Source: an uncultured Clostridium sp. (GTDB lineage: Bacteria > Bacillota > Clostridia > Oscillospirales > Oscillospiraceae). From it: a DNA stretch of 33,153 bases. Each line of letters starts with the position of its first letter. Position 1 is the first letter of the stretch. A program made the translations under genes and the position numbers. The stretch spans positions 1 through 33,153 of the forward strand of contig CAJFVL010000014.1 of NCBI GenBank assembly GCA_904420465.1. Direction: 5' to 3'. Below are positions 3,754-29,408 of this stretch, in pieces. The notes under the pieces were generated by a model. It saw only the letters and a list, made by a program, of their open reading frames with translations, was not told the origin of the DNA and did not search any database.

Positions 3754-3952
3754 TGTGGGTTCCTCCTCACGTTCTGGTAATGGACCGCTCCCCTGCAGTC
3801 CCGGCGGCCCTCACGGCTGCCTCAGCCCCCATTATACCGTCCCCCCGCCGCCTCCGCAACTTTATTTTTTTACTCTTTCAACAAAAAGAGCTTGTTCTGT
3901 TTTTTCTTGATGGACAAACCCTACAACCCCCGGCCCAACCGGATAATAAAAA

Positions 3953-4195
3953 GGCGCCCTCCCGGGCACCTCAGCCTGTCAAAAAAGCCCTCCTGCAAGG
4001 AGTTCCGCCGTCCGCAGACGGCGGAATAAAATGAGATCCTGTCATTTCCGGCGGCATGTACGTCGGAAATGACGCCTCTCACGCAAGGCGGGACGACTTT
4101 TCCGCTCGGAATCGAGTCCCGCCTTGCGTGCTTACTTTCTCGAAAAAGCGGCTTTGCCGCTTTTTCGACAGCCACAGGCGCCCTCCCGGGCGCCT
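3953..4195. repeat. Repeat copy 1 (194-bp core 3977-4170) flanked by 19-bp direct repeats of a terminator-like hairpin core (3953-3971 and 4177-4195, 18/19 identical)
   Basis: Core shares near-identical internal sequence with 21562-21754; ends TGTCAAAAAAG...CTTTTTCGACA; multiple internal hairpins. Confidence 0.85.
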
Positions 4196-4206
4196 GTGTC
4201 CATGGA

Positions 4207-4743
4207 TCAATAGTTCTCTGCCTTCAGCTGGAAATAGTCCCTGGGGTGGGCGCAGACGGGGCAGACCTCGGGGGCCTGCTTCCCCACATGGATGTGGCCG
4301 CAGTTGCTGCATTGCCAGATCATATCGCCGTCCCGGGAGAACACCAGGCCGCCCTCCACATTGGCCAGCAGCTTTAAGTAGCGCTCCTCGTGCTCCTTCT
4401 CAATTTTGGCCACCTCTTCAAAGAGGTAGGCGATATGATCGAACCCCTCCTCCTTGGCCTCCTTGGCCATGGTGGCATACATATCGGTCCACTCGTAGTT
4501 CTCGCCCTCGGCAGCCGCCTTCAGGTTCTCAGCGGTGGTGCCGATGCCGCCCAGCAGCTTAAACCAGATTTCAGCGTGCTCCTTCTCATTGGCGGCAGTC
4601 TCCTCAAAAATCTTGGCGATCTGCACATAGCCGTCCTTCTTCGCCTTGGAGGCAAAGTAGGTATACTTGTTCCGGGCCTGGGACTCTCCGGCAAACGCGG
4701 TCCACAGATTCTGTTCAGTCTTGCTTCCCTTCAGTTCAGGCAT
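4207..4743 (-). CDS. rbr: Rubrerythrin
   Basis: Ferritin-like N-terminus ([37 protein letters not shown]) and C-terminal rubredoxin-like [29 protein letters not shown]. Confidence 0.97.
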
Positions 4744-21530: not shown

Positions 21531-21785
21531 AGCGCCCCGGCGAAAGCCGGGGCGCTCAGCTTGTCGAAAAAGCCCTCCTGCAAGGAGTTCCGCCGTCCGC
21601 AGACGGCGGAATAAAATGAAATCCTGTCATTTCCGGCGGCGTGTACGTCGGAAATGACTCATCTCACGCAATTTGATTCGACAATTTCTCAAGAAATCGA
21701 GAAACAAATTGCGTGCAGCCTTTCTCGAAAAAGTGGCTTGCCACTTTTTCGACAGTCCCAGCGCCCCGGCGAAAGCCGGGGCGCT
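21531..21785. repeat. Repeat copy 2 (193-bp core 21562-21754) flanked by exact 26-bp direct repeats of a terminator-like hairpin (21531-21556 and 21760-21785)
   Basis: AGCGCCCCGGCGAAAGCCGGGGCGCT on both sides; 11-bp perfect terminal inverted repeat TGTCGAAAAAG...CTTTTTCGACA; shares internal sequence with copy 1. Confidence 0.88.
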
Positions 21786-25111: not shown

Positions 25112-25328
25112 TTGGCGTTGTTTCCTGCTCGGTGCGTGATGGGCTCTTTTAAACCCACATCTTTTAAACGGGACGCCCCCTCACGGCGCGGCTTGCAGGC
25201 CTCCCGGCCCCCTTTGAGGTCAGCTGGAAGTTGGAAGCAGTAAAACGTCGTGGAGGCGACCCACCTGCCACTTCGTGCAGGTTTTAAACGGGTCCACACG
25301 GCCAGAGCGGGGTTAGAAACGACGCTGG
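25112..25328 (+). ncRNA. ssrS: Probable 6S RNA
   Basis: Closing stem GCGTTGTTTC (25115-25124)/GAAACGACGC (25316-25325) continued by CTGCTC/GAGCGG, about 200 nt in length, followed by an intrinsic terminator; position after a DUF1292 gene; family assignment partly from recall. Confidence 0.6.
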
Positions 25329-29242: not shown

Positions 29243-29256
29243 CGCTGTTTGACACC

Positions 29257-29377
29257 CTCATCTTGCGATACACCACCGCCGGATTTGGCACCTTGCCTTC
29301 CCGCCGCCCAAAGCAGGCGGCGACCAGGCAGGTTGCCGTGGCGTCACAGGGCCGGTCCCTCAGCCACTCTTGATAAG
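29257..29377 (-). promoter_or_regulatory. SAM-I (S-box) riboswitch upstream of metK
   Basis: Minus strand CTTATCAAGAGTGGCTGAGGGACCGGCCCTGTGACGCCACGGCAACC...AAGGCAAGGTGCCAAATCC...AAGATGAG matches the S-box core. Confidence 0.95.
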
Positions 29378-29408
29378 GTTATTTACTTGTACGATCAGGT
29401 ATAATAGG

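Follow-up and report, generated by a model that had tools for sequence, protein, structure and literature searches.

A short structured repeat that duplicates whole hairpins at gene ends in Oscillospiraceae and is probably moved by IS1182-family transposases

The element beyond rubrerythrin and its family

The window analysed here is a 33,153-nucleotide stretch of DNA from an uncultured Clostridium sp. (GCA_904420465.1, contig CAJFVL010000014.1, positions 1-33,153), whose genome (G000 below) is a draft of 133 contigs and 88.6% completeness. In this window, a minus-strand rubrerythrin gene is followed, 11 bp after its stop codon, by the first of two 20-bp hairpins, with an intervening element of 204 bp (Table 1). 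An element between two hairpins had been proposed from the sequence alone, and it is real, but its length had been put at 194 bp, whereas alignment to other copies sets its ends 204 bp apart. Direct reading bears out that the bracketing hairpins are direct repeats: they differ by one mismatch and their CTCCC loops run in the same sense. Likewise, in the rubrerythrin direction (minus strand), the T-run is kept after the distal hairpin only. The original prediction had added the caveat that the proximal hairpin is extended by extra pairing (CACA/TGTG). This holds, in the form CAC/GTG, because the window copy ends in CCAC where the family consensus has TCTC.

Table 1 Features of the window and of the two copies of the element that it contains
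Feature	Positions	Strand	Sequence and remarks
Left hairpin copy, distal to rubrerythrin	3952-3971		AGGCGCCCTCCCGGGCACCT; T-run next on minus strand
MITE copy, 204 bp	3972-4175	+	Left end CAGCCTGTCAAAAAAG, right end CTTTTTCGACAGCCAC; multi-copy; ends by copy alignment
Hairpin H1	3990-4002	+	CTCCTGCAAGGAG; then T6 when read on minus strand, terminator-like
Hairpin H2	4003-4026	+	TTCCGCCGTCCGCAGACGGCGGAA; covarying stem, loop CGCA
Hairpin H3	4041-4073	+	GTCATTTCCGGCGGCATGTACGTCGGAAATGAC; most conserved core, found across genera
Nested hairpin H4	4080-4130	+	CACGCAAGGCGGGACGACTTTTCC...GTCCCGCCTTGCGTG; all long-stem pairs covary
Right-end hairpin H5	4140-4168	+	TCGAAAAAGCGGCTTTGCCGCTTTTTCGA; symmetric A5/T5 round GC stem
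Right hairpin copy, rubrerythrin-proximal	4176-4195		AGGCGCCCTCCCGGGCGCCT
Rubrerythrin gene, its terminator the insertion site	4207-4743	-	PF02915
Left hairpin duplicate, second copy (L007)	21531-21556		AGCGCCCCGGCGAAAGCCGGGGCGCT
Second MITE copy, 203 bp	21557-21759	+	About 83% identical
Right hairpin duplicate, second copy	21760-21785		Exact
6S RNA	25119-25317	+	Rfam match at gathering score
SAM riboswitch	29255-29379	-	Rfam match at gathering score

The element region folds far better than shuffled versions on either strand (z = -11.7 and -10.8). Only chance ORFs overlap the 204 bp and no transposase is encoded there; the element may derive from the IS1182 family without being one of its autonomous members. 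The second copy in the window has an exact 26-bp hairpin duplicate at each side.

In G000, 46 matches correspond to about 30 separate copies, several of them cut by contig ends. Matches were found in 19 of the 60 genomes searched (G000 included), almost all of the same genus. When named genomes were scanned for the hairpin that is best conserved, the matches listed included more than 100 stretches, in several Clostridiales and Oscillospiraceae metagenome-assembled genomes (MAGs; one with dozens of copies) and in the isolate Sporobacter termitidis DSM 10068. The element family is widespread in the genus and present in other Clostridia, including Sporobacter termitidis. Many contigs end inside the repeat (L068, L053, L054, L012, L061 and contigs of MAG JAJUGN) and draft assemblies therefore undercount the copies. 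The family has the properties of a miniature inverted-repeat element (MITE): its copies are short (202-205 bp), numerous, intergenic, heavily structured and without a transposase gene. Four longer variants in G000 (L067, 1932-2235; L013, 2088-2366, minus strand; L017; L011) have in common an extra stretch of ~75-100 bp (CCCAGAAAACCATTTTATGGTTTTCTGGG...GGAGCATCGGAGG...), located at an identical position within H4. A second subfamily in G016 (L071-L077), 202-203 bp where measured, has the same architecture and right-end hairpin, with different stems.

Duplicated hairpins, empty sites and gene context

Alignment of the copies placed their left end at CAGCTTGTC and their right end at GACAGTCTC, after which the left and right flanks were compared. 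In the genus set, 34 of 38 copies have a direct duplication of a hairpin flush with both ends, the exceptions being L006, L031, L138 and L142. The same is seen in 25 of the 31 copies of a distinct-subfamily set from other genomes, i.e. in 59 of 69 copies over the two sets. When the flanks of different copies were paired instead, the same threshold was passed by 1 of 1406 pairings (genus set) and 0 of 930 (subfamily set). The duplicated piece extends from one foot of the hairpin to the other, measures 18-37 bp and has no common sequence; both gaps to the element are zero in most copies. Of 51 MITE copies whose loop could be oriented, 47 have it in direct sense and four (L164, L236, L286, L303) inverted, L164 having its hairpin duplicated with the loop turned round.

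Empty sites at the rubrerythrin locus itself are not clean, as synteny past the gene varies between species, and other loci were used. The genes around L069 recur in ten relatives, which carry a single 22-bp hairpin there, CACTCCCGGATTTTCCGGGCCT or a local version of it, and lack the element. The locus of L064 holds, in G014, a single terminator hairpin that still has its T-run. Thus, relatives have one hairpin and not two at both loci, from which it follows that the duplication arose together with the insertion. A target need not carry a T-run, as L069 shows, where a weak hairpin closing a coding region was hit. Locus-specific duplicates and single-hairpin empty sites therefore identify the element as a MITE with a whole hairpin as its target-site duplication. 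Two checks, bracketed copies elsewhere and empty sites in relatives, had been proposed for the reading that an element entered a terminator and duplicated the hairpin there; both have come out in favour of that reading.

These comparisons also bear on the idea that the two hairpins are pre-existing double terminators, for instance of convergent genes, with the repeat merely lying between them. About half of the copies do lie between convergent genes, and the MITE of G271 (L184) has different hairpins on its two sides, as this idea would have it. However, at almost all loci the two hairpins agree with each other, also in their loops, but not with those of other loci, and the relatives' empty sites have a single hairpin; the idea is refuted for most copies and we consider it extremely improbable as a general account.

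Context classes were obtained with a home-made gene caller. Among the 37 classified genus copies, 17 are flanked by convergent genes, 19 by tandem genes of either orientation and one by divergent genes, so that the 3' end of at least one gene adjoins 36 of the 37; the second set gave 15 convergent, 11 tandem and one divergent. The element is unbiased in its orientation relative to the gene, which indicates that the hairpin is targeted and not the direction of the transcript. For the same reason, co-transcription with the upstream gene was rejected as the reason for terminator targeting. The expectation that the element would always stand downstream of a gene in one fixed orientation was wrong: some copies have convergent genes as neighbours, and others follow a gene that may be on either side of them. 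In other species, the 3' end of rubrerythrin carries an IS1182-type end in G025 (start of contig C105, L181) and MITE or MITE-like pieces in G271 (L184) and G001 (L186), which suggests that it is a recurrent insertion target.

The structured interior

The interior consists of a series of hairpins (H1-H5, Table 1). Over 38 aligned copies and 56 base pairs, 97.5% of the alignment cells are paired, compared with 86.7% in shuffles, and 30 of the 56 pairs change on both sides; these measures were reached by none of 500 shuffles and by no slid version. Loops and linkers of the core are conserved while the stems change, and about 25 of 36 H4 loops are of the GNRA type by our own count from the alignment. 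H3 hardly varies from genus to genus, and neither do its flanks. H5 is terminator-like in both directions, and the same layout is found at the ends of IS1182-type elements.

The same structured core occurs with other terminal sequences in G124 (L337, L339, L347, L353, L355) and G042 (L086-L088), and at L337 the flanking hairpin is duplicated too. An RNA model of the core was run over the class; it added little on distribution, because strong matches among the 291 sampled genomes were confined to G000 and G124. No Rfam family matched the element at gathering score and nothing credible was found in that database; the window's only Rfam matches are the 6S RNA and the SAM riboswitch of Table 1, both away from the element.

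Group IIC introns insert at terminator hairpins, as this MITE does. A terminator-targeting retroelement, i.e. a group IIC intron or a derivative moved in trans by RNA-primed reverse transcription, would thus agree in target, and the covarying multi-hairpin structure, with its many GNRA-type loops on the plus strand, would also suit it. But such introns are retroelement ribozymes without inverted-repeat ends or target-hairpin duplication, whereas the element has inverted-repeat ends of the kind common to DDE transposons and duplicates the whole target hairpin. Its orientation to the gene is not fixed, and no Rfam intron model matches it. We regard a retroelement as very improbable.

What the core does is a separate matter: it may be a functional RNA, a binding site for a transposition protein or a set of palindromes perfected by mutation. 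The first of these would mean a conserved structured RNA (H1-H4, with H3 almost invariant), carried between transposon ends that can be exchanged and that seek out terminator hairpins, and so seeded as a module of 3' untranslated regions or a small RNA at many genes across Oscillospiraceae and relatives, termination being kept by the duplication. Mobility would then be its vehicle, and the proposal is compatible with transposition as described below. The two-sided changes, the high proportion of paired cells, the loops and linkers conserved among varying stems, the GNRA loops of H4 and the conservation across genera argue for it. Against it, the orientation to the neighbouring gene is unbiased, the surroundings of the window copy yielded no promoter-like site, and palindromes can also be perfected by template-switch repair without selection on RNA. 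We offer it as a tentative and rather doubtful possibility.

IS1182-family partners and the route of insertion

The link to IS1182-family transposons comes from the present analysis and was absent from the original prediction. The genome G010, from the same genus, contains an insertion sequence (IS) of 1.5 kb in about 12 copies, encoding a transposase of 476 residues, which scores 393.9 bits against the NCBIfam IS1182 model (NF033551; cut-off 270) and also matches PF05598, PF13751 and PF01609, i.e. a DDE transposase of the IS1182 type. These elements end in CAGCTTGTCAAARAA; ends CAGCTTGTCAAAAAAC and CAGCTTGTCAAAGAAC adjoin terminator hairpins, and in one copy (L096) an identical 33-bp hairpin stands on both sides. 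Relatives of the transposase in other genera (L105, L107) belong to elements with ends CAGACTGTCGAAAAAC or CAGTTTGTCAAAAAA and similar flanking hairpins, exact 31-bp duplicates in the case of L107. The MITE ends in CAGCTTGTCAAAAAAG at the left and, as reverse complement, in GAGACTGTCGAAAAAG at the right, the latter forming an imperfect inverted repeat of the former. Compared with the IS ends CAGCTTGTCAAAAAAC and CAGACTGTCGAAAAAC, these fit one consensus, CAGnYTGTCRAARAA, apart from small departures. MITE and autonomous element thus have terminal inverted repeats in common, and many termini of both have a subterminal hairpin made of an A-run, a GC stem and a T-run. IS1182-family elements of G010, G124 and G176 agree with the MITE in these ends, in the subterminal hairpin and in their whole-hairpin flanks; they differ from it in being about 1.5 kb long, in carrying a transposase and in their interiors, to which that of the MITE is unrelated in the elements examined. 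Nor does the core interior derive from any of the IS elements found in this analysis. G010 contains both a MITE (L032) and the IS. Five G010 IS copies (L094, L099, L100, L101, L102) have unlike hairpins on their two sides, and the one to the left of L094 is the same as the one to the right of L100; this swap suggests a rearrangement by recombination between copies.

No transposase with matching ends was found in the G000 draft, and no autonomous element in G000, G011, G022, G025, G030 or the MAG with dozens of copies. MITE-bearing G011 is a single contig, 97% complete, and the absence there is probably real. DUF772/IS1182 fragments in G000 (C124, C94), missed by a PF13751 search alone, were rejected as the parent, their element having different ends. 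Most copies could be relics, or else the drafts may lack the transposase; given that none was found in G000 and G011, many may be relics or may have been moved by another enzyme. A real hairpin-duplicating MITE could accordingly owe its mobility to a transposase of another family with a convergent choice of target. Several MITE-bearing genomes without an IS1182 transposase, single-contig G011 among them, and the occurrence of the core with other terminal sequences in G124 and G042 speak for such an enzyme, but IS1182-type elements from this genus and family agree with the MITE in terminal consensus, in the layout of the subterminal hairpin and in hairpin duplication, and we think it unlikely.

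The reading that we favour with good confidence is that of a ~203-bp non-autonomous DNA transposon with IS1182-type ends, most likely moved in trans by an IS1182-family DDE transposase that targets hairpins, the whole hairpin being duplicated. Multi-copy insertion, flush and locus-specific duplication, empty sites, and ends and target behaviour shared with autonomous IS1182 elements are all observed. IS1182-family elements of the same genus and family are the probable mobilisers.

DDE transposases join the 3' ends of their element to the target, and the offset of the two strand cuts becomes the duplication. DNA transposons mostly give short target duplications of fixed length; direct repeats of variable length are listed for IS1182 in ISfinder. 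We infer that the transposase acts on the MITEs at a cruciform target, with strand transfer at the 5' feet. What it recognises would be not a sequence but a hairpin in the DNA or an extruded cruciform, in most cases that of an intrinsic terminator. On each strand, one end of the element would be joined to the hairpin's 5' foot. Joining at the 5' feet would make the staggered cut cover the entire palindrome, and gap repair would leave a complete hairpin at both sides of the element. Occasionally, the folded hairpin itself would be transferred, giving a loop inverted between the sides. The minority of inverted loops (the four MITEs above and the IS copies L093 and L105) suggests such a folded-hairpin intermediate. 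Bases at the element ends pair with the outer flank in 23 of 44 cases when they depart from consensus and in 66 of 334 when they conform to it (p about 1e-5). This excess points to folded intermediates as a second sign and also accounts for the CACA/TGTG extension of the window copy; selection for stronger terminators could be an alternative source of such bases.

The staphylococcal IS1272/TnSha1, also of the IS1182 family, is described in two reports as inserting in hairpins, often intrinsic terminators, with no primary-sequence specificity (PMC4923244; PMC5678879), and is thus similar to the partners of the MITE in both transposase and target. Unlike IS1272, the element here is a MITE of 203 bp without genes. 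IS1272 deletes its target hairpin in part or entirely, without duplication, and its insertion likewise loses the hairpin in PMC4923244, whereas the element here duplicates the entire hairpin at both ends; replacement of the IS1272 type does not apply to most copies, in which a hairpin stands on both sides. Wan et al. 2017 (PMC5678879) derived on paper that joining at the 5' foot of each stem-loop of a cruciform would duplicate the whole stem-loop (their Fig. 13, pathway b), while joining at the 3' foot leads to its loss, as observed for IS1272. The MITE family behaves as their pathway b. Hypothetical there, this pathway is represented here by dozens of insertions, with a minority of inverted loops that their passages on the pathway do not mention. 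RUP, BOX, SPRITE, Correia and ERIC resemble the MITE in being short, non-coding, intergenic, structured and multi-copy; the parts on them of a review of small repeats (PMC10969869) contain neither whole-hairpin target duplication nor a terminator-hairpin target rule. The literature searched, which did not extend to the main IS reviews, where an earlier mention is possible, held no report of MITEs with whole-hairpin target duplication. The duplication of pathway b, earlier hypothetical, is observed here systematically in natural insertions.

Since the duplication is a structure of any sequence, 18-37 bp long and set by the feet of the hairpin, the transposase apparently reads the shape of DNA. 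A proposed pathway of structure-dependent transposition becomes directly testable, and mechanistic work can draw on a list of many insertions found in nature, for some of which the empty site is known. For the host, insertion just past genes, with the terminator copied and a hairpin left on both sides, suggests a way of spreading that does little harm.
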